Assembly (NCBI GenBank): GCA_019240405.1
Contig: JAFAYL010000052.1
Span: forward strand, 1 to 64,000
Source: Acidobacteriaceae bacterium
GTDB lineage: Bacteria; Acidobacteriota; Terriglobia; Bryobacterales; Bryobacteraceae
Direction of reading: 5' to 3'
Length of the DNA: 64,000 bases
In this document: positions 26,076-56,028 of the stretch, piece by piece
How the letters are laid out: each line of letters begins with the position of its first letter
Numbering within the stretch: position 1 is the stretch's first letter
Made by a program: the position numbers and the translations under genes
Notes under the pieces: model-generated
Told to the model about the DNA's origin: nothing
The model's database searches: none
Seen by the model: only the letters and a program-made list of their open reading frames with translations

Positions 26076-27821
26076 TTATCTAAATCTCTCGGTTGATTCG
26101 TGCTGCCGGATCGCGGTTCCACGGCTGGAAGTAGCGGCGGCAGCTTGACGCTGATATTCTCTGAGCCGGAAGCGCTCCTCGTATTCCGCGAGAGCACGAT
26201 AGCTGAGCCCAATTCTTCTTTGCGCCTCATTCATTTTGACGATTTTGAAATCGAAGCTTTCGCCGATCGGCAGCGCCGGAGTCTCGGGATCTCGATGCGG
26301 CTTCCGCCGCTTGCCTCGTTCGCCGGTAATTTCGCTGTTATGGCAGAGGCCCTCGACACCGGGGAGCAATTCTACGAACACCCCAAATGGAACAGCGCGG
26401 CGCACTTGTCCCCTCACGATGTCGCCTACTTGGTGCGTGCGGAAAAAGGTCTCCCAGGCGTCTGGTTGCAGTTGCTTCATTCCTAAAGAAAGGCGGCGCT
26501 GGGGAGCGTCGATATTGAGAATGACAGCCTGAACGGTCTGGCCTTTCCGGACCATTTCCGAGGGATGTCTTACGCGCATGGTCCATGACATGTCGGAGAC
26601 ATGCACAAGCCCGTCGACGCCTTCCTCGATTTCGACAAAAGCGCCGAAATCCGACAGCTTTCGTACGCGCCCCTCGACAACGGAACCAATGCTATAGCGC
26701 TCCGCGACGGTGGTCCAAGGATCGGCTTCTAGCTGTTTAATTCCAAGCGAGATGCGGCGTTCTTTGGCTTTTATCTCGAGCACTACGGATTCCACCTGGT
26801 CGCCTGTTTTTACCACTTTGCCTGGGTGCTTCATCCGGCGGCTCCAGGTCATTTCAGAAATATGAATCAGCCCTTCAACTCCGGGTTCCAGCTCGACGAA
26901 AGCTCCGTAATCGGTTACGCTGGCGACGCGCCCAATCACGCGGCTCCCCTGCGGATATCGCGCCTCGATATTCACCCAAGGGTCCGGGCGCATTTGTTTC
27001 AACCCGAGAGAGATGCGTTCTTTCTGCTTGTCGAATTTAAGAACTTTGATCTTGACCTGTTCACCGACGTGTACCACTTCGGAGGGGTGCGTGACTGGGC
27101 TGTAGCTGAGATCGCTCACGTGCAGAAGTCCATCGATGCCGCCTAAATCGACAAAAGCGCCGTAATCGGTCAAATTCTTGATTGTGCCGGTTACCTCAGC
27201 GCCTTCGTAGATGTTCGCCAATGCCTCGCTCTTTCGGGCTTTTATGGCGTTTTCCAGCAAAACGCGGCGAGAGACAACAGCGTTGCCGCGGCGCTGATTC
27301 AACTTGAGAATGCGGACTTCTATCTCGCGTCCAAGATACGTTTCGGGGTTATAAGAAAGCCGCGTCTCGACCTGCGAATTGGGCAAGAAGGCGACGATGC
27401 CGATATCTACCGCTAGTCCGCCCTTGATTTTGCTTACGACGCGGCCTGAGACAGGCGCGCCTTCTGCGGCGGCTCTTTCAAGACGATCCCATACCTGTCG
27501 CCGATGCGCCTTCTCATGAGAGAGCAGGATATAGCCTTCCACAGGAGGGCCGGCGCGGTCGAACATCACCTCGATGACATCGCCCGGTTTTACCACCGGT
27601 TTCCCCTCTTCGAGAGGAAATTGAGAAGCGGGGACGAGGCCTTCGCTCTTCCGTCCAATGTCGACGATTACTTCTTTGTCGGAAACAGCGAGAACGTGAC
27701 CATACAACACCGGTCCTTCGCGGTGTTGGAATTGATTGGTATAGCCATCCAGGAAGGCTTGATAATCTTCGTTTTCGGGTGTGCCCGGGATTTCGACGTA
27801 GTTCTCAGACGCGCTGGTCAT
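26076..27821 (-). CDS. rpsA: 30S ribosomal protein S1
   Basis: Binds mRNA leaders and delivers them to the 30S subunit. The 581-residue protein has six S1 (OB-fold) domains beginning near residues 35, 120, 205, 290, 377 and 465. The third to fifth are the most conserved (for example NLTDYGAFVDLGGIDGLLHV). A typical S1 has four to six repeats. No good Shine-Dalgarno precedes the ATG, as is usual for rpsA. A strong promoter at 27974-28002 and a leader hairpin are seen upstream. Confidence 0.93.
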   Translation of the reverse strand: MTSASENYVEIPGTPENEDYQAFLDGYTNQFQHREGPVLYGHVLAVSDKEVIVDIGRKSEGLVPASQFPLEEGKPVVKPGDVIEVMFDRAGPPVEGYILLSHEKAHRRQVWDRLERAAAEGAPVSGRVVSKIKGGLAVDIGIVAFLPNSQVETRLSYNPETYLGREIEVRILKLNQRRGNAVVSRRVLLENAIKARKSEALANIYEGAEVTGTIKNLTDYGAFVDLGGIDGLLHVSDLSYSPVTHPSEVVHVGEQVKIKVLKFDKQKERISLGLKQMRPDPWVNIEARYPQGSRVIGRVASVTDYGAFVELEPGVEGLIHISEMTWSRRMKHPGKVVKTGDQVESVVLEIKAKERRISLGIKQLEADPWTTVAERYSIGSVVEGRVRKLSDFGAFVEIEEGVDGLVHVSDMSWTMRVRHPSEMVRKGQTVQAVILNIDAPQRRLSLGMKQLQPDAWETFFRTHQVGDIVRGQVRRAVPFGVFVELLPGVEGLCHNSEITGERGKRRKPHRDPETPALPIGESFDFKIVKMNEAQRRIGLSYRALAEYEERFRLREYQRQAAAATSSRGTAIRQHESTERFR

Positions 27822-28002: not shown

Positions 28003-28056
28003 CCGGTATCGCCTACCGGCGGCAGGTCTTAAACCAGCAACCTTTTGTAAAAGGTT
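28003..28056. repeat. Two inverted repeats between rpsA and tatA promoters
   Basis: CCGGTA-TCGCC-TACCGG at 28003-28019 and AACCTTTT-GT-AAAAGGTT at 28039-28056 are both perfect. The second is an 18-base near-continuous palindrome upstream of tatA. The rest of the gene-free stretch 27822-28151 holds the rpsA leader and promoter, and TATACT at 28101-28106 as a possible tatA -10. These palindromes are candidate regulator sites; neither has a T-run. Confidence 0.4.
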
Positions 28057-28151
28057 TGTACAGCTTTGATCTAGGCCGGTGATAGAGTAGCGAAATCGGA
28101 TATACTGAGATCGCCGGCTAAAAATGCCCGCTGTTTTCCTGGAGAACCCTC

Positions 28152-43695: not shown

Positions 43696-44961
43696 ATGTC
43701 CATGGATGTCCCTCGAGGAAAAGAAGTCGCCCGGAAGCGTCTGATCCGGCGAGTTGTTTTAATCTCCCTCGGCTTAATCGTAATTGGCGGCGCAACATTC
43801 GCGGTCACCCGTCTAAAACCCGCAGCTCCCTCGGTGGAACGCAGCGGCGTCTGGATCGATACCGTCAAACGGGGCCCCATGGAGCGACAGGTCCATGGCC
43901 TGGGGCGCCTCACGCCGGAAGCCGTTTACTTTATTCCTGCTGTCGTCGATTCGCGTGTTCTTCAGATCGTCCGCCGGCCAGGTCTCGACACCATAAAGGC
44001 CAATGACGTCATCATGGTGCTCAGCAATCCGGACATGGAGCTCGAAGCAGAAAATGCTGCCTGGCAGGTCAAACAGGATGAAGCTACCCTGGCCAATCTC
44101 AAGGTCAAACTTGAAAGTGAGAAGCTTGACCAAAGAGCCAGTCTCGCCGAGCTCGAATCCCAGTACACGCAAGCGAAGCTCACTGCTGACCGTGATCTCG
44201 AACTTACGCGCCTGAATCTGAAGAGCGACTTGGAATCCAAGCTGTCGGTCGATAAGGCGAACGAATTGGAAAAACGCGTCGCCCTCCAGAAGCAGCGCCT
44301 TTCAATCGCCGATGACTCGATTAAGGCCCAAATTGACGCGGAACAGGTGGCTTTAGAGCGGTCGCGCGCCGCTTATCAGCTCAAGAAAAAGCAGGTCGAT
44401 CAGCTCACCATTCGCGCAGGGATTGACGGCGTTTTGCAGGAGGTCGACGTGGAGGTTGGCGAACGCGTCCCGGCGGGCAAAATCCTCGCCAAAGTAGCCG
44501 ATCCCAAAAAGCTGAAAGCCGAGCTCAAGATCGCTGAAACGCAGATGAAAGATGTCCGGGTAGGATTGGACGCTTCCATCGACACTCGGAACGGCATTAT
44601 TCCAGGGCGTGTAATTCGTATTGATCCCGCAGCACAGAACGGCACGGTCACGGTTGATGTCGCGCTGCTCGGATCGCTTCCCGAAGGCGCCCGGCCAGAG
44701 CTGAGCGTTGACGGCACTATCGAAATCGAACGGCTGCCGGACGTCGTTTACGTCGGCCGCCCTGTTTCCGGCGAGCAGGATGCGACGATCGGCCTATTCA
44801 AGCTTGATCCCGATGGCAAGGGCGCCGAACACGTAACTGTAAAACTCGGCCGGGCGTCGGTCAACACAATCGAAGTGAAAGATGGGCTTAAGGTAGGCGA
44901 CCAAGTGATACTTTCTGACATGTCGCAGTGGGATTCTCAGCCCCGAATCCGGTTGAACTAG
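43696..44961 (+). CDS. HlyD/MacA-type periplasmic adaptor of an efflux system
   Basis: A 421-residue membrane fusion protein. One inner-membrane helix (about 19-38) is followed by a lipoyl/beta-barrel half (about 60-110), a long coiled coil (about 118-235) and the second lipoyl half (QLTIRAGIDGVLQEVDVEVG near 236). It links an inner-membrane transporter to an outer-membrane channel. AAGGAG lies seven bases before the ATG. Two ABC ATPases follow on the strand, which points to a MacAB-like export system, but no permease gene is here. Confidence 0.82.
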   Translation: MSMDVPRGKEVARKRLIRRVVLISLGLIVIGGATFAVTRLKPAAPSVERSGVWIDTVKRGPMERQVHGLGRLTPEAVYFIPAVVDSRVLQIVRRPGLDTIKANDVIMVLSNPDMELEAENAAWQVKQDEATLANLKVKLESEKLDQRASLAELESQYTQAKLTADRDLELTRLNLKSDLESKLSVDKANELEKRVALQKQRLSIADDSIKAQIDAEQVALERSRAAYQLKKKQVDQLTIRAGIDGVLQEVDVEVGERVPAGKILAKVADPKKLKAELKIAETQMKDVRVGLDASIDTRNGIIPGRVIRIDPAAQNGTVTVDVALLGSLPEGARPELSVDGTIEIERLPDVVYVGRPVSGEQDATIGLFKLDPDGKGAEHVTVKLGRASVNTIEVKDGLKVGDQVILSDMSQWDSQPRIRLN

Positions 44962-45011
44962 AACATGGCAGCGCACGTAATTAGGTAGAGATACAGGAGG
45001 ATTGAACCAGA

Positions 45012-45713
45012 ATGACCGCTTCCGAGCCGTTGATCCATCTTGATGGCGTCACCAAAGTATTTGTCACCGACGAGGTGGAAACGCACGCTCTATCAGGAAT
45101 TCACATCGACATCCAGCGAGGCGAGTACGTCTCGATCTCCGGCCCGTCTGGCTGCGGGAAATCTACGTTGCTCGCTATTCTCGGTCTGCTTGATTCACCA
45201 ACCTCCGGGACCTACATTCTTAACGGCAAACCTGTTCAAAGCCTGAAGCTATCCGAGCGCGCTCGCATTCGCAACCGCGAAATTGGCTTTATTTTCCAAG
45301 CTTTCAATCTAATCGGCGACTTGAACGTCTATGAGAACGTGGAATTGCCGCTTACCTATCGCGGTATGGGATCAGCCGAGCGCAAGAAGAAGGTTCACGA
45401 AGCTCTTGAGCGCGTCGGGATGTCGCACCGCATCAAGCACTACCCATCACAGCTCTCGGGCGGTCAGCAGCAGCGTGTCGCAGTCGCTCGCGCATTGGCC
45501 GGCGATCCGTCCATCCTGCTTGCAGACGAGCCTACCGGAAACCTGGACTCGCAAAACGGTGAACAAGTAATGGATCTACTTCGTGAGCTGCATCGCGGAG
45601 GCGCGACCATCTGCATGGTTACGCATGACCCGCGCTACGCTCGGTACGCTGACCGTTCCATTCACCTGTTTGACGGTCGTGTGGTTGAGGAGAATATGGA
45701 GGTTCCTGTATGA
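45012..45713 (+). CDS. ABC transporter ATPase, MacB/LolD type
   Basis: A 233-residue nucleotide-binding subunit. Walker A is GPSGCGKST (44-52), signature LSGGQQQRVAVARAL, Walker [11 protein letters not shown] followed by LDS, and the switch histidine is in VTHDP. The order matches the ATPases that drive FtsX-family permeases exporting lipoproteins or peptides. Its stop overlaps the next small gene by four bases. A partner permease would be expected next, but none is present. Confidence 0.88.
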   Translation: MTASEPLIHLDGVTKVFVTDEVETHALSGIHIDIQRGEYVSISGPSGCGKSTLLAILGLLDSPTSGTYILNGKPVQSLKLSERARIRNREIGFIFQAFNLIGDLNVYENVELPLTYRGMGSAERKKKVHEALERVGMSHRIKHYPSQLSGGQQQRVAVARALAGDPSILLADEPTGNLDSQNGEQVMDLLRELHRGGATICMVTHDPRYARYADRSIHLFDGRVVEENMEVPV

Positions 45714-45895
45714 TTCGCAAGAATGTCGACATCATCGCAGTATTTGTGCTGTTGTTCGGGATCGCGCTATACTCGCGCGCGCGTGAGTCGAGAATCCTCG
45801 AGGTCATCCCCGCTAAGCGAATCGCTCTCTCGAAAGGCGGCTTGTGCCGCGCTTATTCGGCGTTTCACCAGCTTCGCTACATCGAATACAAATAG
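45710..45895 (+). CDS. Small single-span membrane protein in the ABC cassette (61 aa)
   Basis: Starts at an ATGA overlap with the preceding ATPase, a strong sign of translation. One transmembrane helix is at about 8-22 (DIIAVFVLLFGIALYSR), followed by a short basic tail ending CRAYSAFHQLRYIEYK. It resembles no permease. It might be a remnant or an accessory subunit of the cassette. Between its stop and the next ATPase, 95 bases hold no clear feature. Confidence 0.5.
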   Translation: MIRKNVDIIAVFVLLFGIALYSRARESRILEVIPAKRIALSKGGLCRAYSAFHQLRYIEYK

Positions 45896-45990
45896 CGGTT
45901 ACGCAGCGTGCGAAGCCCGTCTTCACGCTTATCGTCTATCGCGTCGATCCCGTCGCTGCTTTACGCTATGAATGAGCGTTCCAGATTCTA

Positions 45991-46656
45991 ATGATCTCTC
46001 TTCGCAACATTGAAAAGTATTTTGAGCACGGTCCTACAAAGACTTACGTGCTTCGCCGCATTAACATCAACATCAAGGAAGGCGAATTTATCTCCATCAT
46101 GGGTCCTTCGGGCGCAGGGAAATCAACTCTGCTCCATCTCCTCGGCATGCACGACAGCGCATGGACGGGTGAGTACGATTTTTTCGATCACCCGATTCAT
46201 CGACTCAACAAAAAAGATCGCTCGGAGCTCTATAAAAAATACATCGGCTTCGTTTTCCAGAGTTATCACTTGCTTGATTCGCTAACTGTCTACGAAAATC
46301 TGGATATTCCGCTTTCGTATCGCAACATCAAGAAGTCCGAGCGGCAAAGCATCGTCTGCGACACGCTGGACCGGTTCAATATGGTCGGGAAAAAAGATCT
46401 TTACCCAAACCAGCTTTCAGGCGGGCAGCAGCAGCTTGTGGCGGTCGCGCGCGCGATGATCGCCAATCCGAAACTGATTCTCGCGGATGAGCCCACCGGC
46501 AACCTGCACTCGAGCCAGGGTAAGGAGATCATGGAGCTGTTCAAGAGGCTGAACGAGCAGGGAACAACGATCGTTCAGGTGACCCACAACGAAAAGAATG
46601 CCGAGTACGGAAATCGGATCATTTACATCGAAGATGGCTGGATCACCCGAAATTAG
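45991..46656 (+). CDS. Second ABC transporter ATPase with altered signature
   Basis: A 221-residue ATPase. Walker [10 protein letters not shown] (38-46) and Walker [11 protein letters not shown] are intact. The signature reads [15 protein letters not shown], with Leu where most have Arg. The D-loop, usually LDS, is LHS. Switch histidine is in VTHNE. These changes may lower hydrolysis, or this half may serve a non-transport role as in lipoprotein-release or division complexes. It starts 95 bases after the small gene and precedes the regulator. Confidence 0.82.
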
Positions 46657-46693
46657 CGTTCCGTTCAACAGCCCGGCATGGCAGCCGAGCAGT

Positions 46694-48061
46694 ATGACAA
46701 TCGTGCCTTCGCAGATGCGCATTTTGATCGCAGACGATCAACCCGATGTGCTCGAAGCGCTGCGGCTGTTGCTCAAACGCGAAGGCTACAAAATTGAATC
46801 GGCCGAATCTCCGCAGCAGGTACTGCAAGCCATCGAAAATCGCGACTATGACGCCGCAATTATCGATCTGAACTACACTCGCGATACAACATCCGGGCAA
46901 GAAGGTTTGGAGTTATTGGCGAAAATTCAGGCGATCGATGCGATGCTGCCCGTAATCGTGATGACGGCGTGGAGTAGTGTCGGTCTCGCGGTAGAAGCCA
47001 TGCGCCGCGGCGCGCGCGACTTCATTCAGAAGCCTTGGGAAAACGAGCGCCTCTCCTCGATCGTTCGCACCCAGCTCGAATTGAGCGAGGCTCTGCGCCG
47101 GGGGCAACGGCTCGAAGCTGAAAACCAACTCCTGCGCGCGGACAATTTGCCGACGATGATAGCTCAGGCGCCATCCATGCAGCCCGTGCTCGACATGATT
47201 TCGCGCGTCGGCCCGTCCGACGCAAACGTCCTGATCACTGGCGAGCCGGGGACCGGTAAAGAGGTCGTCGCGCGTACGCTCCATGCCATTTCCAGCCGGT
47301 CGACTAAGCCAATGGTAACCGTCAACGCCGGAGGTCTTGCGGAAGGCGTTTTTGAAAGCGAGCTGTTCGGGCACATCAAGGGCGCATTTACTGACGCCAA
47401 GATGGATCGCGTCGGCCGTTTTGAGTTGGCGGATACCGGCACATTGTTCCTCGATGAGATCGCAAACGTCCCGATGAATCTCCAAGCCAAGCTTCTGCGC
47501 GTTCTTGAGACAGGCGAGATGGAGCGCGTAGGCTCATCGAAAACAAAGCGTGTAGACGCCAGGGTGATCTCCGCCACAAACGCGAAGCTCGCCGATGAAG
47601 TGCAAAATGGCCGGTTCCGCCAGGATCTCCTGTTCCGCCTCAACACAATCGAAATTCATCTGCCTCCGTTGCGCGAGCGCCGCGAAGACATCGGTCCTCT
47701 GGCCGGCCACTTCCTTGGTGTTCATGCGCGGCGTTATCGCAAGGCGATTACCGGCTTTGATCATAATGCGCTTCAGGCTATGCAGGAGCATCCCTGGCAA
47801 GGTAATGTTCGCGAGCTCAATCATGTCGTAGAGCGCTCCGTCTTGATGGCTCAAGGTAATTGCATTAAAGCGAGCGACCTCGCTTTGCGTGCCTCTACGA
47901 TAGCGTCGCCTCGATTGGAAGATATGAGCCTCGAGGATGTGGAAGAGTTTCTGATCAAAAAGGCCTTGGCGCGGTACGGTGGCAATGTCAGTCATGCTGC
48001 CAATGCTTTAGGCCTTAGCCGGAGCGCCTTATATCGCCGCCTGCAACGCTTCGGGCTGTAG
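46694..48061 (+). CDS. NtrC-family sigma-54 response regulator
   Basis: A 455-residue regulator. The receiver (8-130) has its phospho-acceptor at Asp58 and Lys113. The AAA+ domain (about 155-390) has Walker A GEPGTGKE (183-190), GAFTDA (230-235) and Walker B TLFLDE (250-255). The GAFTGA loop that contacts sigma-54 has Asp for the second Gly. A Fis-type helix-turn-helix is at the end (NVSHAANALGLSRSALYRRL). ATG 46694 is chosen past the ATPase end; earlier ATGs overlap that gene. It probably activates the cassette with the kinase that follows. Confidence 0.85.
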   Translation: MTIVPSQMRILIADDQPDVLEALRLLLKREGYKIESAESPQQVLQAIENRDYDAAIIDLNYTRDTTSGQEGLELLAKIQAIDAMLPVIVMTAWSSVGLAVEAMRRGARDFIQKPWENERLSSIVRTQLELSEALRRGQRLEAENQLLRADNLPTMIAQAPSMQPVLDMISRVGPSDANVLITGEPGTGKEVVARTLHAISSRSTKPMVTVNAGGLAEGVFESELFGHIKGAFTDAKMDRVGRFELADTGTLFLDEIANVPMNLQAKLLRVLETGEMERVGSSKTKRVDARVISATNAKLADEVQNGRFRQDLLFRLNTIEIHLPPLRERREDIGPLAGHFLGVHARRYRKAITGFDHNALQAMQEHPWQGNVRELNHVVERSVLMAQGNCIKASDLALRASTIASPRLEDMSLEDVEEFLIKKALARYGGNVSHAANALGLSRSALYRRLQRFGL

Positions 48062-48082
48062 CGATCTCTCCCGGGCGAGCAC

Positions 48083-49405
48083 ATGAAGCTCGGCCACACT
48101 AGCCACGATGTCCGAGTTTTGCTGCTCGCGCTTGCGGGCGGATTGCCGGCGATTGCGACGTGCATCATTATTCTGTTCACCGGCAACTTCTCGGCGAGGA
48201 CGCAATGGACAGTAACCATTTTTGTTGTTCTTCTGTGGCTCGCTTTCTCGTTCGCCGCGCGAGAGCGTGTCACGAGCTCTCTACGAACTCTGGCGAATCT
48301 CCTCGAAGCCATGCGCGAAGGAGATTATTCCATTCGCGCTCGCGTAGACAATCCCCGCGAACCGCTCGGCGAAGTCATGCAGCAGGTCAACACGATGGCC
48401 GCGACTCTCCGCGCCCAGCGTCTTGGCGCATTGGAAGCGACCGCGCTCCTTCGCAAGGTTATGGAGGAGATCGATGTTGCCACATTCGCTTTCGATCCGC
48501 AGCAGACCTTACGGTTAGTAAATCGCGCCGGCGAGCGTCTCCTTGCTCAACCGGCCGAGCGCCTTCTGGCGCGCGACGCAACTTCGCTGGGATTGGCTCA
48601 ATATCTGGCTGGCGAACCCGAACAAACGATTCAGCGCTCATTTCCTGGTGCCACGGGACGATGGGGGATCCGCCGCAGTCAATTTCGAGAGGGCGGCCTG
48701 CCTCACCAGCTTCTCGTCGTAACGGACTTGACGCGCCCTTTGCGCGAAGAAGAGCTCCAGGCTTGGCAGCGCTTGGTTCGGGTTATCGGGCATGAGCTGA
48801 ACAACTCGCTCACGCCTATCAAATCGATCGCCCAGAGTCTGGAGTTGCTGGTTACGACCAGTCCGCCTCCTGAAGATTGGCAGGATGATATGGCAAAAGG
48901 ATTAAATGTAATCGCGGCCCGTTCTGAATCGCTCAGCCGTTTCATGAGTTCCTATGCCCGCTTGGCCAAACTGCCGCCGCCTAAGTTTGCGCCGGTCGAG
49001 ATCAATGAGCTTTTGAGGCGTGTCACCAGTCTTGAAACGCGCGCTCAAGTGTTTTTTGAGGAGTGCCCTCCGCTGACCATTCAGGGCGATGCCGATCAGC
49101 TCGAGCAGGTTTTGATTAACCTGATCCGGAACGCTGTCGATGCTGTGCAAGAAACCGGAGGACGGGTCTTTGTGCGGCATGAGCGCGCGCCAACAACAGT
49201 GCAAATCACAGTGCGCGATGAAGGTCCGGGGCTTTCCAACACTTCGAATCTGTTCGTGCCGTTCTTCACAACGAAACGTGGCGGCTCAGGTATCGGGCTC
49301 GTTCTCAGCCGGCAAATCGCAGAGGCGCACAACGGATCGGTCAGTCTCGAGAATGCGAGAGATGGAGCGGGTTGCGAGGCGAAACTGATTTTGCCGGTTC
49401 AGTAA
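48083..49405 (+). CDS. Membrane sensor histidine kinase (NtrY-like)
   Basis: A 440-residue kinase with two membrane helices (about 11-33 and 43-59), a HAMP-like linker (about 60-112) and a short PAS-like domain (about 120-200). The HisKA domain has His237 in VIGHELNNSLTP. The ATPase domain carries NLIRNAVDAVQ, DEGPGLSNTS and RGGSGIGLVLSR. It lies 21 bases after the regulator and surely phosphorylates it. There is almost no periplasmic loop, so the signal is sensed in or near the membrane. Confidence 0.88.
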   Translation: MKLGHTSHDVRVLLLALAGGLPAIATCIIILFTGNFSARTQWTVTIFVVLLWLAFSFAARERVTSSLRTLANLLEAMREGDYSIRARVDNPREPLGEVMQQVNTMAATLRAQRLGALEATALLRKVMEEIDVATFAFDPQQTLRLVNRAGERLLAQPAERLLARDATSLGLAQYLAGEPEQTIQRSFPGATGRWGIRRSQFREGGLPHQLLVVTDLTRPLREEELQAWQRLVRVIGHELNNSLTPIKSIAQSLELLVTTSPPPEDWQDDMAKGLNVIAARSESLSRFMSSYARLAKLPPPKFAPVEINELLRRVTSLETRAQVFFEECPPLTIQGDADQLEQVLINLIRNAVDAVQETGGRVFVRHERAPTTVQITVRDEGPGLSNTSNLFVPFFTTKRGGSGIGLVLSRQIAEAHNGSVSLENARDGAGCEAKLILPVQ

Positions 49406-49417
49406 CAACTCAAAGTC

Positions 49418-51193
49418 TTATGCTTTCGCCGAAGCTGCAGGGTACATCTCTTCCTTTGATGAAACGAGAGAGCTCGCGCCGAACTCGAGACAGAAGCAAG
49501 CGCCAGGTCCGGATTTCTCGACTAGCTGCAAATCACCGCCAATGTCGAGCATCGTTTGCCGCGACAAACTCAGGCCAAGGCCCAAGCCAGTCCGTTTGCC
49601 CGCCGTTACGAATGGTCGAAATAGCTGCGGACGAAGGTCGAGGGGAACGCCCGGTCCTGTATCTTCGACAAAAACCTTGAGCTTATCTGTCTCGCTCATC
49701 TGATATACAAAAACATCGCCCCCCTCCGGCATCGCGTCAATGGCATTCGAAAAGAGATTTACAAAGACCCGCTCCAACCTGGTACGATTCACGAATAACT
49801 CCATCGCATCGTCAATGGCGATTCTTACGCGCACGCGATCGCTCGTGGCGTGAACAGAATCGGCCGCCGACTCGACGATCTCTTTCAAGTGGCAGCGCTC
49901 GAGGTTGCTCGCTTCCCCGCGGGACACGTTCAGCAAATCTTGCAGCAACTCCTGTATTCGGTGAGATGCCCGGTAGATATTTGACGCGATTCTCCCGGTC
50001 TGTTCCGGCGGGAGTTGCCCATCAACGAGCATCTCCGCACCCCCGTAGACGGCTGCCAATGGATTTCGTAAGTCGTGGACGAGTGAGCTCGCCAGCCTGC
50101 CAATCGTATGGATCTGCTCCTGGTGAATCAAATCGGCGCGGGCCTGCTCGATCGAGTCGCACATATGATTAAACGTTTCTGCGAGCCGCGACAGCTCGTC
50201 AGTACCCTGGACCGGTAAACGGTAGCGATAATTTCGCGAGGCTATTTCCGCTGCTGCGCGATCAAGCAGCGAGACTGGTTGCAGCAGGCGATTCGTGATA
50301 AACGAGGTGAGCAAAATGGCGAGTGCAATCGTGGCGAGCCATGCCAAACCAAGACTTCGTCGAAGTTCGCTGAGCGACCGCTCCAGGTTCGCAGACGAGT
50401 GGAGAATTCGAAGCTCCGCGATAGGCTTGCCTGTCACGTCGGCTAGACGATGACTGAGGGCTATGAACTGATTTCGCTGGATACGTTCATATTGAGACAG
50501 CGCGTCTTGCGCTGGCTCTTCCGCCAAAGACCTCTTTAGACCCGGGCCTAATGTCGAAGCAAAAACCTTGCCTTCCCCCAAGAAAGCAAAATCACTTCCG
50601 GGAGCCAGTTGTCTCAACTCGTTCGCCAGGTGATCATCAATCCGGAAACCGGCGCACAGTACATTCAGCAGCAATGGCTGTCCAGTCGTTTGCACATAGA
50701 CAGGAGTGAGCACGATGTAGAACAGCCGCGAACCTTCGCGCAAATATCCAGCCTGTTGGCGAGGAAATCGCGAGGAAATCTGTTGAAGCGGGATCTCAGC
50801 CGGAGAGAGTTGTTCGCCATTCTTACCTAACGCGCAAATGAGACTGCCATCTCCGCGGAGAACAAGGAAAACGGCTGATTCATTGGAAACCCGAGACCAT
50901 AAATCTTGAGCGAAATCATGTATTGTTGTTTGATCACGGGTCATCAGAACTTTCCGCACATCCGACATCGAGCTCATCAGGGCGGACGTAGCCGATAGCA
51001 TCTGAGTTCGAGCCTTCCAAACCGCGTCATAAGCCTGAATGCTTCCACGAATCTCTTGCCTGATACTTTGGTCCGCAACCGAAAGCGCGTAACGCTGAAG
51101 CCCCCACCCCGCCACGGCGAAAAGAATAGTAATCGTGATGGACGTGGCAAGGAAAACGCGCCAACGAAGCGGGATTTTACCGATCACTCTCAT
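49418..51193 (-). CDS. Sensor histidine kinase with large periplasmic domain
   Basis: A 591-residue kinase. Helix 1 (about 13-33) and helix 2 (about 282-301) flank a periplasmic sensor of about 250 residues that resembles a double-CACHE fold. HAMP is at about 302-355. HisKA has His373 in SLVHDLRNPLAA, and the ATPase domain has FSNAIDAMPEG and DTGPGVPLD. The ATG overlaps the cupredoxin stop (TAATG), so it is the last gene of the operon that starts with the OmpR-type regulator at 54336. It converges on the other kinase with 12 bases between. Confidence 0.88.
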   Translation of the reverse strand: MRVIGKIPLRWRVFLATSITITILFAVAGWGLQRYALSVADQSIRQEIRGSIQAYDAVWKARTQMLSATSALMSSMSDVRKVLMTRDQTTIHDFAQDLWSRVSNESAVFLVLRGDGSLICALGKNGEQLSPAEIPLQQISSRFPRQQAGYLREGSRLFYIVLTPVYVQTTGQPLLLNVLCAGFRIDDHLANELRQLAPGSDFAFLGEGKVFASTLGPGLKRSLAEEPAQDALSQYERIQRNQFIALSHRLADVTGKPIAELRILHSSANLERSLSELRRSLGLAWLATIALAILLTSFITNRLLQPVSLLDRAAAEIASRNYRYRLPVQGTDELSRLAETFNHMCDSIEQARADLIHQEQIHTIGRLASSLVHDLRNPLAAVYGGAEMLVDGQLPPEQTGRIASNIYRASHRIQELLQDLLNVSRGEASNLERCHLKEIVESAADSVHATSDRVRVRIAIDDAMELFVNRTRLERVFVNLFSNAIDAMPEGGDVFVYQMSETDKLKVFVEDTGPGVPLDLRPQLFRPFVTAGKRTGLGLGLSLSRQTMLDIGGDLQLVEKSGPGACFCLEFGASSLVSSKEEMYPAASAKA

Positions 51194-51945
51194 TATTTTG
51201 GTGGACCGATATATGTATCTGTCTCGCTGGATGGCGGATAATCCAATCCATACTTGTTCTTATGCGGCAATTGCACGTATCCCGCCTCTGACAGGTGAAT
51301 TGGGGAGGGAGTCACAACAGATTGCGTCTCATCGACTGAGACGAGCATCTGAGAAGTGGGTTCCTGAGTGGCGCGTTCGTCGAAGACGTGCAATTCGTAT
51401 TCTCCTGGCGGAACATTCATCAGCCGGTAGCGTCCATCACGTCCGGCTTTAGTGAAATACGGCGTATCGACGACTACGATGATCGCGAACATGGACGGAT
51501 GAATATTGCAGAATACACGCACGATGCCGGACTTGCGAAAGCGCACGGACCTGCTGGTGCCGGGAGGATACAGACCCACATCGAAGATTTGACCGTCGAA
51601 AGTTGAAAAAGCGTTGTGAAAAATTGGATCTGCATTCGGAAAGTCGACCGTTGTCCCCGCCGTGATCACAAGTGTGTGCGGGTGAAACATCTTATCTTTC
51701 TGAAGTAGTTGCGCGTGCTGTGGCTGTGAGGTGAAAGCGGAATTCGGATGAATGGGAGTAAGCCATACAACAATGTCGGAATTGCTTTGTTCACCGCCGC
51801 GCGTTGCCTCAGGCGTGCGCGTAACATCTATATTGCCCGATACCATCGCGCTCCAGGCAGTCCCACCGAGCATGACTCCAAGAGCAAATGATGCAGATCT
51901 AAAAAAGATACGCGACAGACGCGTCATATCGATTCGTAAGAGCAT
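51193..51945 (-). CDS. Secreted cupredoxin-domain protein with carboxypeptidase-regulatory-like tail
   Basis: A 250-residue exported protein. After a signal peptide (about 7-32), residues about 55-165 form a plastocyanin-like domain with likely type I copper ligands His110 (PIFHNAFS), Cys146, His149 and Met152 in RVFCNIHPSMF. Residues 165-205 match the GRYRLMNVPPGEYELHVFD turn of carboxypeptidase-regulatory domains. It probably binds copper or carries electrons at the outer membrane. The ATG at 51945 or 51927 both overlap the porin end. The kinase gene follows by a one-base overlap. Confidence 0.8.
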   Translation of the reverse strand: MLLRIDMTRLSRIFFRSASFALGVMLGGTAWSAMVSGNIDVTRTPEATRGGEQSNSDIVVWLTPIHPNSAFTSQPQHAQLLQKDKMFHPHTLVITAGTTVDFPNADPIFHNAFSTFDGQIFDVGLYPPGTSRSVRFRKSGIVRVFCNIHPSMFAIIVVVDTPYFTKAGRDGRYRLMNVPPGEYELHVFDERATQEPTSQMLVSVDETQSVVTPSPIHLSEAGYVQLPHKNKYGLDYPPSSETDTYIGPPK

Positions 51946-53299
51946 TTGTGAGATCGAGATAAGTCAGCCGTTGCTGAGAAGCCTCGAGCCCAATGACCAC
52001 GTTGGGACTAATGCGGTACAGAATATTTCCAGCGTACGTCAATGTTTTGAGAATCGCGGGATAAACAAGATCGCGGCCTTCGTTTACTTGCCGGCCGGCG
52101 TAGAGATCGAACGTAACGCGGCTCGTTACTGGGAACGCCAATTGCGTCCATCCACCAGCTCCGTGGATCGGGATCAGCGTACCCTCATAAAAGGTGAGTC
52201 CCGGTGGCCCGCCGCCGATGTTGGCGAAGTTCTCTCCGCGGAACAGCGTGCCTGTGAGTTCAAATTGTCGAATTGGCTTAAACGAAAGATCGGTGCTAAC
52301 GACGCGCGATTTTATCGACTGTCCATAAAGCTGCGTTTCACTCGAGTGAAAACCGAGGCCGATAGCGAGCCAGGAGTCATCACTCCATTGATGTCGCACA
52401 GCTCCATGAGCCTGGATCGCAGGCCTGGACGCTGTGAGCAGATCGGTGCTCTGCAGATACCCGAGCGAGTATCTCTCATCGGTCTCCACAACGCCAACTT
52501 GCAAAGTCGCTTGTGTTTTTGTCGTAATCGGAATACGCTCTTCGTAACGAATCTGCGGCCGCCATAGCCACAGATTTCCAGCGCCGTCCAAAGGCGGAAT
52601 TCCCACCCGTGCGAAGGAGGTCGGTTGAAACGGAGAAATCAGTGATCTGTCCTGTCCGACGATGATGCTGCGCCTTTTCCAATCGAGCGAAACTACGCCC
52701 GTTCTGATTCGGAAAACGTCATCGTAGTACGGACTCTGGGCGAAAAAATCCATCGAAAGCGATCCGTGCACCTGCCCGCCCCAGGGAAGTTGCGGGCCTC
52801 GAAACTCGAGGCCTAAAACGGACTGCCTTACTGTCGCTCCTCCGCTCGACGCAAACGGATCAGGCTCTCCATACATGACCGGCGGCGGCCCGGAATTCAG
52901 AAAAGCGTTGAAAAGCAACATGCCGTTGAGCGTAATTGGGAACCGCTGCGATGCTTCAACCTTCGTTTGGGCCTGGTCTTTGATTTGCTGCTCCGCTACG
53001 TCGAGCCGGTCCTGGGTTTGTTGAGCGTCGCTTTGCGGGTTCTGCGGGGACGATTCGCTGCTCTCAGTTTTCGCTTCGCTTGACACCTCAGCCCCGGCCC
53101 GCGTCGCTTTGACCTCTTCACGAAGTGATTTGACTTCCTCTAACAGAGCTTGATTCTGTCGCTCTAGTGCATCGAGACGATTCAAAATGCGCGCCAGAGT
53201 GTCTGGCGCGGGTGTCTGTTCCTGAGCCAGGATTGATCCATTCATGAACACCATCAAGCTCAGTGCGCCGATGCTACTGAAGCAATTGTTCCAACACAC
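51899..53299 (-). CDS. Outer-membrane porin-like beta-barrel with N-terminal coiled coil
   Basis: A 466-residue exported protein. GTG at 53299 is the true start because a perfect AAGGAGG sits six bases before it, although the frame is open back to 53365. The signal peptide ends near GSILAQEQ. A coiled coil (about 36-68, LARILNRLDALERQNQALLE) is followed by a region of alternating strands (about 120-466) with aromatic girdle residues, typical of a porin. The terminal residue is Phe. It overlaps the receiver gene by 26 bases. It may carry a substrate sensed by this operon. Confidence 0.78.
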   Translation of the reverse strand: MCWNNCFSSIGALSLMVFMNGSILAQEQTPAPDTLARILNRLDALERQNQALLEEVKSLREEVKATRAGAEVSSEAKTESSESSPQNPQSDAQQTQDRLDVAEQQIKDQAQTKVEASQRFPITLNGMLLFNAFLNSGPPPVMYGEPDPFASSGGATVRQSVLGLEFRGPQLPWGGQVHGSLSMDFFAQSPYYDDVFRIRTGVVSLDWKRRSIIVGQDRSLISPFQPTSFARVGIPPLDGAGNLWLWRPQIRYEERIPITTKTQATLQVGVVETDERYSLGYLQSTDLLTASRPAIQAHGAVRHQWSDDSWLAIGLGFHSSETQLYGQSIKSRVVSTDLSFKPIRQFELTGTLFRGENFANIGGGPPGLTFYEGTLIPIHGAGGWTQLAFPVTSRVTFDLYAGRQVNEGRDLVYPAILKTLTYAGNILYRISPNVVIGLEASQQRLTYLDLTNALTNRYDASVAYLF

Positions 53300-53648
53300 G
53301 ACAGACCTCCTTCGGGGAGAATGGCTTTTGGAATAGAGCGTTTGCGGGATGTGGCGCCGATCCATTCAACACGCCGGCGCGTTCGTCCGCGCTGATCATG
53401 ATCACCGGCAAGTTTCGGTACGCTTGCATCGTGCGAACTTGCCGGATCAGCTCGAACCCGTCAATATAGGGAAGATTTAGATCTGTTACCAGTGCAGCTA
53501 TTGCGGAACCGGGCGTGCTGAACAGAGAAAGCGCCGCTCGAGGGTCCCGAGCAACGATCGCTTTTACATCCGAAAGCGTTTCGATGGCAACCGCGAGAGA
53601 ATGCGCAACGGTCTCTGCGTCTTCCACAATGACGACGACCTTCTGCAT
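53274..53648 (-). CDS. Stand-alone receiver (CheY-like) protein
   Basis: A 124-residue receiver with no output domain. Acidic pocket residues are Glu9 and Asp10, phospho-acceptor Asp56 in LVTDLNLP, and Lys108 in QKPFSP. It may compete for phosphate from the sensor kinase, or relay it. It lies 13 bases after the OmpR-type regulator and overlaps the porin start, so it is expressed with both. Confidence 0.85.
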   Translation of the reverse strand: MQKVVVIVEDAETVAHSLAVAIETLSDVKAIVARDPRAALSLFSTPGSAIAALVTDLNLPYIDGFELIRQVRTMQAYRNLPVIMISADERAGVLNGSAPHPANALFQKPFSPKEVCRVLEQLLQ

Positions 53649-53661
53649 TAGCGCTGGTACA

Positions 53662-54336
53662 TCAAGGCACGAATCGATAACCTACTCCGTGAACCGTTAC
53701 AAAGTGCTTTGGAACGCTTGGCTCTTCCTCAAATTTCTGCCGGAGCCTTACGACGTGAGCGTCAACGGTCCTGGTGTTTGGATAATACTCATAGCCCCAA
53801 ACGGAATTCAGTATCAGATCGCGAGTCAAAACGCGGTCTGCGTTCTGGAGGAAAAACAGGAGCAAATTATATTCTGCGGGAGTCACACGAACCTCTGCTC
53901 CACGTTTTGTGACATTCCGCCGCTCTACATCTATCTCCACTTCGTTGAACCGGACAATTCGCGCGCCATCACTCCCGCTACGCCTTAAGACAGCGCGAAT
54001 GCGAGCCAGGAGCTCACGCGTGCCGAACGGTTTTACCACGTAATCATCAGCGCCGACCTCAAGAAGCAGAACTTTGTCCACTTCATCGGCTGCGGCGCTC
54101 AACACAATGATCGGCGTGGTCACGCGGCTGGCACGAAGCTGTTTGCAGACTTCGATCCCGCTTAACCCCGGCAACCGCAAATCAACGATGATGAGGTTCG
54201 GCTTCGTCGAAAATGCCTTGTCAAGGCCGGAAGGACCGTCGACGGCCTGTATAGGGACGAAGCGTTCACGCTCGAGTAATATGCTGACCGTCTCGCGCAA
54301 TTCTGAATCGTCATCAACTATCAAGATCTTTTCCAT
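53662..54336 (-). CDS. OmpR/PhoB-family response regulator
   Basis: A 224-residue winged-helix regulator. Asp52 in IIVDLRLPG is the phospho-acceptor; the switch lysine is in YVVKPFGTRE. The winged-helix domain (about 128-224) ends with TVHGVGYRFVP, as in KdpE/PhoB-type proteins. GGGAGG lies nine bases before the ATG. Two direct-repeat boxes upstream (54421-54496) suggest autoregulation. It is the first gene of the five-gene operon ending in the sensor kinase. Confidence 0.9.
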   Translation of the reverse strand: MEKILIVDDDSELRETVSILLERERFVPIQAVDGPSGLDKAFSTKPNLIIVDLRLPGLSGIEVCKQLRASRVTTPIIVLSAAADEVDKVLLLEVGADDYVVKPFGTRELLARIRAVLRRSGSDGARIVRFNEVEIDVERRNVTKRGAEVRVTPAEYNLLLFFLQNADRVLTRDLILNSVWGYEYYPNTRTVDAHVVRLRQKFEEEPSVPKHFVTVHGVGYRFVP

Positions 54337-54420: not shown

Positions 54421-54437
54421 TTTACAAAACTTTTACA
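54421..54437 (-). promoter_or_regulatory. Regulator box 1, TTTACA-N5-TTTACA
   Basis: TTTACA at 54421-54426 and 54432-54437 repeat with an 11-base period (shown on the forward strand; TGTAAA in the operon direction). Eleven-base direct repeats are typical of OmpR/PhoB-family sites. It lies just upstream of the predicted -35 of the regulator operon. Confidence 0.55.
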
Positions 54438-54479
54438 GCCGCTGCACAAGCCCCTGATGTACTCGGCGACAATCAGAAC

Positions 54480-54496
54480 TTTACGAGAAATTTACA
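54480..54496 (-). promoter_or_regulatory. Regulator box 2, TTTACG-N5-TTTACA
   Basis: TTTACG at 54480-54485 and TTTACA at 54491-54496 have the same 11-base period and lie 59 bases from box 1. The two together could form a looped or cooperative site for the regulator encoded downstream. Confidence 0.5.
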
Positions 54497-54639
54497 GCTT
54501 TCTCACCCCTGCAAGCCACTTCCGGCGCCACACTACAAGCGTAGATGAACCTTCGCGCAAGAACAATCGAGTCGAGTCCTATGGTACGTCAGCACGCGTC
54601 GGATCGGTTTTCTCTGCGGGGTTCGACACAAGGCCCTTC

Positions 54640-54735
54640 CTTCCTCCCATAAATGAGACATGCACTGGCCTGAATGAACATAGGTCAGGTTTGATTCTCT
54701 CAAGGGCGCAGCCACTGGTTGCGCCCTTGATTTTT
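54640..54735 (+). ncRNA. Candidate small RNA ending in a perfect terminator
   Basis: Rightward RNA would contain a first stem CCTGA with TCAGG (54670-54690) and then the terminator at 54701-54735. No gene on this strand needs that terminator within 400 bases. A possible -10 CATAAA lies near 54651. The promoter is weak, so this is a proposal. Confidence 0.35.
54701..54735 (+). terminator. Strong forward-strand intrinsic terminator
   Basis: CAAGGGCGCA (54701-54710), a nine-base loop, TGCGCCCTTG (54720-54729), then ATTTTT. The ten-pair stem is perfect. The T-run is only in the forward direction, so it does not serve the reverse-strand ferritin-like gene. Confidence 0.75.
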
Positions 54736-54781
54736 CGGAGTGCCGGAAGGATTTGAGGTTGGAATAAAGCGGCGGGAGGTC

Positions 54782-55915
54782 TCAGTACCTGTCGCACTCG
54801 CGCCGAGCTTCATCGGCGTCCTCAGCCAAGTCGCGCAGATATTCAAAAAATTCCTTTGATTGACCTATGAACAGGCCATCAGCAGCGAGCGCCTTGAGAG
54901 CGCCCATGGCGACGCCTTTCGTTTCGGTCGGGCGGATGATCGAACATGCCGGAAACTTTCGGCTCAGGAATGGGCAGGGCTCGGGCATGATCAAGTTGGC
55001 TTGCAGCGAGTCTGGCTGGCCACTTGCGAGGTTCACAAACGTTACGGTTGCTTTCGTGATCGGATCCGTATCGGTCAATGGAGTTGCATTTCCGGCTTTA
55101 TCTTGCCAGGTCTGGAAATGCATCGTCTCCGTCGGGCCAATGCTCAGCAAGATTCGAAGCACCTCAAGACTCGTCACTCTCTGAGCTAACGATGGATAGA
55201 GACTCGTTCCGCCCTGCTCGATAAATGCGAAATGGAATCCTGCTGTAAAAGCAATGGCTTTGAGGTGGTCGGTTTGATTGGCAAGCGTGCTACCCGCAGT
55301 ATCCGCATTGCTGCGCGGGATCGCAGGATGCTCTCCGACATTCAAACCTTTTACGGCTTGGCCGAAGGTGAAACCGGGATCGAGGTCGGGATTGTGCGTG
55401 CTGCTTCGGTAGCGTGTCCAAAAACTCGTGTTAACCGTAAGTCGCATCAAATTCGTGAGCCGAGCTTTTCCCGAAGAGCCGTCGGCTGTACTGCCGGGCA
55501 ATGTGCGAAATCGATCCAGATTGACTGTATCGGCGCCTTTGGATGCGAGATACGCATCAATGAAATGCCAATGACTGAACTCGTCATCCGTATTGTCATG
55601 AATGTACTGGGGCATGTCCATGTCCAGAATGGTAAGCGCTGCCGTGTATAACGGATTCCCGCTTCCGCTCGGCTCTTCGCTGTCTTGGATGCCGCCAAGT
55701 TCGTTGTACTGCTCCCAAAGATCGCTTTCAAGGATTTCGGCTGCTGCGAGGAACCTGAGAATTGCGGCGTCTCCTTTCGGGAGTGAGCCGCTTCCTTCCT
55801 CACTGCCAAACGCGGGTAATCCGCTTCCTAAAAGGCCGGCTCCGACCGCCGAGGCGCCAGCCGTAAGGCTGCCCCGCAGAAAGGAACGGCGATTCTTGCC
55901 AAGATCTGCACTCAT
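54782..55915 (-). CDS. Tat-exported ferritin-like protein
   Basis: A 377-residue protein with a twin-arginine signal (NRRSFLRGSLTAG, residues 8-20) and a ferritin-like helical part (about 50-120) whose motif DDEFSHWHFIDAYL has the metal-ligand pattern Glu..His. A second His-bearing helix is near GPTETMHFQTWQD. It likely binds iron or another metal in the periplasm; its TatA is encoded at 28152. AAGGAG sits 11 bases before the ATG. A third regulator-type box lies upstream (56012-56028), suggesting control by the OmpR-type protein. Confidence 0.78.
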   Translation of the reverse strand: MSADLGKNRRSFLRGSLTAGASAVGAGLLGSGLPAFGSEEGSGSLPKGDAAILRFLAAAEILESDLWEQYNELGGIQDSEEPSGSGNPLYTAALTILDMDMPQYIHDNTDDEFSHWHFIDAYLASKGADTVNLDRFRTLPGSTADGSSGKARLTNLMRLTVNTSFWTRYRSSTHNPDLDPGFTFGQAVKGLNVGEHPAIPRSNADTAGSTLANQTDHLKAIAFTAGFHFAFIEQGGTSLYPSLAQRVTSLEVLRILLSIGPTETMHFQTWQDKAGNATPLTDTDPITKATVTFVNLASGQPDSLQANLIMPEPCPFLSRKFPACSIIRPTETKGVAMGALKALAADGLFIGQSKEFFEYLRDLAEDADEARRECDRY

Positions 55916-56011
55916 AAATTACAAGTCTCCTTTTTGGAGCGCTGTTTCGCGTAATGCTTGCGCTCACGGATCTAGCGTGCGGCTTTAAGGCGCTAGAAAT
56001 TGTCGGGGGTC

Positions 56012-56028
56012 CGTAAACGATTCGTAAA
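56012..56028 (-). promoter_or_regulatory. Regulator box 3 upstream of the ferritin-like gene
   Basis: CGTAAA at 56012-56017 and 56023-56028 (TTTACG-N5-TTTACG in the gene direction) repeat with an 11-base period, like the boxes at 54421 and 54480. It is about 97 bases before the ATG at 55915, in the opposite relative orientation to boxes 1 and 2. Confidence 0.5.

Follow-up and report, generated by a model that had tools for sequence, protein, structure and literature searches.

The locus raises the question whether three short direct repeats of the form TTTACR-N5-TTTACR, two in front of the operon of an OmpR-type regulator and one in front of a gene for a Tat-exported ferritin-like protein, are operators of a single regulatory system and, if so, what that system controls. 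The original prediction had read them as the mark of an envelope metal or redox regulon. A pattern search of the window (the whole 64-kb stretch of DNA analysed) confirmed the three boxes at the predicted positions and returned no further TTTACR-N5-TTTACR site. The features concerned are:

49418..51193, minus strand: sensor histidine kinase (dCache_3-HAMP-HisKA-HATPase)
51193..51945, minus strand: exported cupredoxin (invariant ligands; weak PDB match to blue copper proteins)
51899..53365, minus strand: DcaP-like porin with N-terminal helix (model and Foldseek match 6eus)
53274..53648, minus strand: stand-alone receiver protein (Response_reg; syntenic in most relatives' loci)
53662..54336, minus strand: OmpR/PhoB-type response regulator (Response_reg and Trans_reg_C)
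54421..54437, plus strand: proximal putative operator of the regulator operon, TGTAAAAGTTTTGTAAA when read toward the regulator
54480..54496, plus strand: distal, weaker putative operator of the regulator operon (pattern match, matrix score)
54782..55915, minus strand: Tat-exported Ferritin_2 protein (PF13668; conserved RR motif and ligands)
56012..56028, minus strand: putative operator upstream of the ferritin-like gene (pattern match, homologue upstream regions, matrix score)

On the minus strand the operon runs in the order regulator, stand-alone receiver, porin, cupredoxin and sensor kinase. The regulator combines a receiver with a Trans_reg_C winged helix (95.5 and 90 bits, both over the cut-off). 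The porin, whose first start overlaps the receiver gene and whose true start may be later, had no Pfam match in the profile search, and its model is a barrel with N-terminal helices (pLDDT 76.6) for which DcaP is the closest structure (Foldseek, 6eus). The protein had been called porin-like, and the model bears this out: it is a predicted outer-membrane barrel with an N-terminal helical part, DcaP-like and with putative channel activity. The cupredoxin assignment held as well, H110, C146, H149 and M152, which we take to be the type-1 copper ligands, being invariant in 16/16 sequences. At 43696-49405, a presumably HlyD-like gene and MacB/LolD-like ABC transporter genes adjoin a sigma-54-type response regulator and a second histidine kinase.

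The regulator ATG is preceded by the proximal box at 84 bp and by the distal box at 143 bp; on the strand of the regulator gene these boxes are TGTAAA-N5-TGTAAA and TGTAAA-N5-CGTAAA, respectively. The third box, within the gap behind lipA, precedes the ferritin-like gene by 96 bp, and its orientation relative to its own gene is opposite to that of the regulator boxes. Scored with a matrix trained on 40 other promoters (training minimum 17.7), the proximal, ferritin and distal boxes reach 28.5, 18.8 and 16.1, which makes the distal box the weakest of the three. The number of boxes expected in the window is 0.00 (100 dinucleotide shuffles), and rarity elsewhere in the genome, set beforehand as a test, was observed: the 4,447,216 bp contain 6 exact boxes, 3 of them within 1.6 kb, against a single match for the reversed control. 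With one mismatch allowed, the own genome holds 48 sites vs 62 for the control. Genome-wide, information thus resides only in near-perfect sites, and extending the own-genome regulon via one-mismatch sites was dropped on the same counts. That such sites are not in excess, and that TTTACA is akin to a -35 hexamer, would suit an origin of the boxes by chance or as promoter-like AT-rich sequence; shuffles and reversed controls, together with the conservation and 11-bp spacing described below, disfavour this explanation, which we regard as extremely improbable.

The porin served as marker: 30 of 60 genomes, the own one included, have a match at E <= 0.001 and 26 at E < 1e-50. Among relatives with a name, the closest are for the most part MAGs of Bryobacterales or Bryobacteraceae (Acidobacteriota). 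Within the genus the operon is present in 14 genomes. The fetched loci extend far enough upstream in 12 of them, and each of these 12 testable operons carries an exact box upstream of the regulator, 63-93 bp from its start in the 11 measured; the expected conservation upstream of regulator orthologues is therefore seen. At the level of the order, 79 distinct promoters were kept from 110 loci, after loci with a regulator match below 55% or short of its start, with less than 150 bp upstream, or duplicating another had been dropped. A box with at most one mismatch lies antisense at 40-110 bp in 41/79 promoters and an exact one in 27/79, compared with 1 in sense orientation and 1 for the reversed control. 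Frequency varies with regulator identity (7/7 at >=75%, 25/41 at 65-75% and 9/31 at 60-65%), box presence follows clades, and the 38/79 promoters in which the box is missing at 40-125 bp belong mostly to more distant relatives.

In a motif-free test TGTAAA is the top over-represented hexamer of the 79 promoters (42 regions vs 2.6 expected), and pairs of GTAAA are 11 bp apart 35 times and at every other distance at most 2 times, a spacing that bears out the proposed OmpR/PhoB type with its 11-bp period. Alignment of the 41 box-bearing promoters leaves strong information only in TTGTAAAA-N3-TTGTAAAA, with a weak GT one period further upstream; information in the box columns is partly high by construction, while the flanks and the hexamer test are free of that effect. 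The sole significant blastn match of the own promoter to relatives spans the box element. Residue 197 of the recognition helix (Arg/Lys) was considered as determinant of the box and rejected: Fisher's test gave 1.6e-6, but position 124 gives the same value and independent pairs lent no support (2/79 rows with neither Arg nor Lys were omitted from this test).

The ferritin-like protein matches PF13668 with 27.1 bits vs a cut-off of 24.7, covering part of the profile only. Across 15 sequences, E63, E112/H115 and E263/H266 are invariant and E233 is nearly so. A ligand set of the di-iron type (E, ExxH, E, ExxH) is thus present and conserved, in line with the predicted Tat-exported ferritin-like protein, and metal binding is putative as read from these residues. 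Single-sequence folding gave an unusable model (pLDDT 33.4). Homologues occur in 15 of the 60 genomes, including the own genome, and the operon is present in all 15. A box with at most one mismatch was found in 11/20 homologue upstream regions (10/19 without the box-carrying query), always oriented as here, against 0/20 for the control; these 20 are the rows of 27 that remained after pieces without a usable gene start had been dropped. The proposed link between box and ferritin-like gene is accordingly conserved. None of lipA, the regulator, the receiver and the porin is a neighbour in 17 other homologue loci (up to 1.5 kb on each side). Since the box is kept while the neighbours differ, it stays with the ferritin-like gene as the surroundings change.

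Exact boxes number 128 vs 41 for the control in the 26 operon genomes (operon presence being defined as porin E < 1e-50) and 26 vs 28 in the 34 others, a difference in excess with a Fisher p of 1.8e-4 that ignores relatedness; the same comparison for the genus alone, again ignoring relatedness, gives 82/29 vs 3/6. Around exact boxes of 22 relatives, 80 regions were fetched among the matches listed, leaving out G025, G027, G029, G031, G033-G036, G038, more distant genomes and two sites of G024. Among these matches 68/94 exact boxes are intergenic, compared with 10.9% of that DNA, gene starts and intragenic verdicts being rough because they come from a simple in-house ORF scorer. The genes flanking the boxes form recurrent clusters, again among the matches listed: regulators (23 genes, of this operon and others), TIGR03118-family proteins (9), Wzi capsule assembly (8), SLBB/Poly_export (8), B12-radical SAM (5) and sugar transferase (4), in addition to pairs (e.g., YceI, BON and Rieske) and 48 singletons. 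Searches with Wzi and TIGR03118 queries, picked because they bear a box, found it in 12/21 and 10/25 upstream regions, or 11/20 and 9/24 without the query itself (21/22 and 25/29 rows used, pieces without a usable gene start dropped). The reversed control over the ferritin-like, Wzi and TIGR03118 upstream regions gave 2/66. The ferritin-like, Wzi and operon genes share one contig in two relatives, within ~28 kb in G002 and within ~57 kb in G024. The B12-binding radical SAM genes of relatives (L178, L180, L201, L209 and L071) have an exact box 38-116 bp upstream.

Two loci of relatives encode further OmpR-type regulators (L202, 1872-2657; L204, 1544-2218) with 60-71% identity to this one and their own antisense box; L202 also contains a Wzi gene. 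The boxes may therefore be real operators read mainly by another OmpR-type regulator, with this operon as one target. Such box-bearing paralogues, some of them beside capsule genes, speak for this possibility, as does the fact that half-sites can be common to related regulators; against it, the box excess tracks the presence of this operon, and the promoter of the operon itself is where the box is most constant. We consider another main reader unlikely, while some of the sites could be shared with, or belong to, a paralogous regulator.

The boxes, then, hold a conserved position and orientation, their excess co-occurs with the operon, and the same target families recur behind them. We consider it likely that they are operators of the adjoining two-component system, which would be autoregulated and control an envelope and surface-polysaccharide regulon. 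The promoters with no box at 40-125 bp, the missing one-mismatch excess, the clade-wise presence of the box, the box-bearing paralogues and the choice of Wzi and TIGR03118 queries by their box weigh on the other side. Kept before the operon, the ferritin-like gene and the capsule genes of relatives, the boxes would outline a conserved cell-surface regulon of soil Acidobacteriota.

Of the three exact sites that the own genome has outside the window, one is close to where a recombinase-like gene ends, a second precedes the gene for a TIGR03118-family exported protein (L005) by 77 bp, and the third is close to genes for a small BufA2-like protein and an MNIO enzyme (PF05114; L006). The last locus (G000:C56, ~386,100-387,500) comprises:

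1501-1517: box (matrix score 26.6)
1630-1941: gene for a BufA2-like Cys-rich protein, 113 bp downstream of the box (41.9 bits vs a BufA2 cut-off of 60)
2022-2870: gene for the MNIO enzyme (PF05114, 362.9 bits)

Three tandem half-sites at 11-bp steps stand upstream of the TIGR03118 protein (L005, ~1500-1529) and, as a one-mismatch site, of an exported NHL-type protein (L042, ~1501-1529). Wzi had no match in the own genome, the same query being positive in 16/60 genomes. The regulon predicted here is smaller, consisting of the operon, the ferritin-like gene and the TIGR03118 protein (L005), with the exported NHL-type protein (L042) and the MNIO locus perhaps as further members. Within the window, a one-mismatch box at 28046-28062 lies between rpsA (26076-27821) and a tatA-like gene (28152 on) and is probably due to chance, since such sites are not in excess; the ferritin-like target is likewise connected with Tat, as a substrate. 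A 581-aa ORF at this box, considered as a mark of Wzi, was rejected as ribosomal protein S1, and tblastn detected no box-linked family, Wzi included, at this locus.

These sites bear on the metal or redox reading, by which the kinase and the cupredoxin would act as sensors of copper or of the redox state and switch on exported proteins that handle metals. The blue-copper ligands of the cupredoxin, the di-iron-type ligands of the ferritin-like protein, a plastocyanin-domain gene behind one box of a relative (L176) and, as the strongest metal lead, the own-genome box near the bufferin-like (BufA2-like/MNIO) locus all suit it. However, the recurrent targets are mainly surface polysaccharide genes and exported proteins without a metal motif, the box is absent at the four closest MNIO homologues examined, and the BufA2 score is under its cut-off, so that this reading appears improbable. 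Of the original prediction, the conserved box link and the envelope stand, whereas the metal or redox theme finds no support in the form proposed, the targets in relatives being mainly capsule/exopolysaccharide export and TIGR03118 proteins; the label is too narrow, though the operon encodes a blue-copper protein. A more specific proposal, also doubtful, treats the operon as one sensing unit: on its way to the dCache_3 kinase, a copper or redox signal from the periplasm would be passed on or gated by the porin and the blue-copper protein, and the regulator would convert this signal into production of capsule and exported di-iron protein.

The regulator was compared with known systems. According to the accessible part of a study of VicR, the WalR/VicR (YycF) operator of Firmicutes is TGTWAH-N5-TGTWAH, refined in S. 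mutans to TGTWAHA-N4-TGTWAHA; it works on either strand, and neither strand nor position predicts the sign of regulation (PMC4168254). VicRK also controls extracellular polysaccharide genes, as stated in the portion available of a second report (PMC3595261), and the KdpE half-sites are given in the accessible text of a third as TTTATA and TTTACA with a 5-bp spacer (PMC3264566). Measured against the operator forms in these excerpts, the proximal box fits TGTWAH-N5-TGTWAH, the ferritin and distal boxes depart from it by a C in place of the first T in one half-site, and the KdpE half-site letters are nearly the same as those of our boxes. The regulator itself scores below the cut-offs for WalR/YycF (198.4 bits vs an equivalog cut-off of 340) and KdpE (183.3 vs 325), and the kinase below that for WalK (108.6 vs 725). 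Its best family scores include MtrA (231.3 bits) and PhoB (212.7 bits), yet these too are under their cut-offs (300 and 296.2). Unlike WalR/VicR, the system belongs to an operon with a porin and a cupredoxin in an acidobacterial host, and its gene neighbours in the window differ from those of KdpE. For the porin, the predicted barrel has 6eus as best PDB match (TM 0.79 by target length), but identity to DcaP is 16% and the gene sits inside a two-component operon. With operator letters like those of VicR/WalR and KdpE and scores under both cut-offs, the system is similar at the DNA and a separate lineage with its own operon. A title-level literature search did not find this regulon.

In the preferred explanation, the membrane sensor kinase would phosphorylate the OmpR/PhoB-type regulator, a dimer of which would bind TTGTAAAA-N3-TTGTAAAA head to tail with one helix turn per half-site; this anatomy fits a phosphorylation-driven dimer on tandem half-sites, by analogy with KdpE and VicR/WalR. 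The regulator would autoregulate its own operon (regulator, receiver, porin, cupredoxin and kinase) and control scattered exported and surface genes, including the Tat di-iron-type protein and TIGR03118-family exported proteins, together with the capsule/exopolysaccharide cluster in relatives that have it. That the regulator itself binds the boxes and acts positively is what we infer, and so are the signal and the roles of porin, cupredoxin and receiver. By eye, -10-like hexamers follow the operon box after ~36-49 bases and the boxes of L341, L348 and L370 after 21-22 bases, and are not evident in many other promoters inspected alongside these three; where present, their placement would be compatible with an activator.

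Acidobacteriota abound in soil and are difficult to cultivate, and a conserved operator allows regulon members to be predicted directly in uncultured genomes. If the operon does act as one sensing unit, it would be a surface switch gated by copper or redox, and an example of a WalR-like operator beyond the Firmicutes. Through the boxes, capsule production and an unstudied family of exported ferritin-like proteins can also be tied to a two-component system in a way that is open to test.
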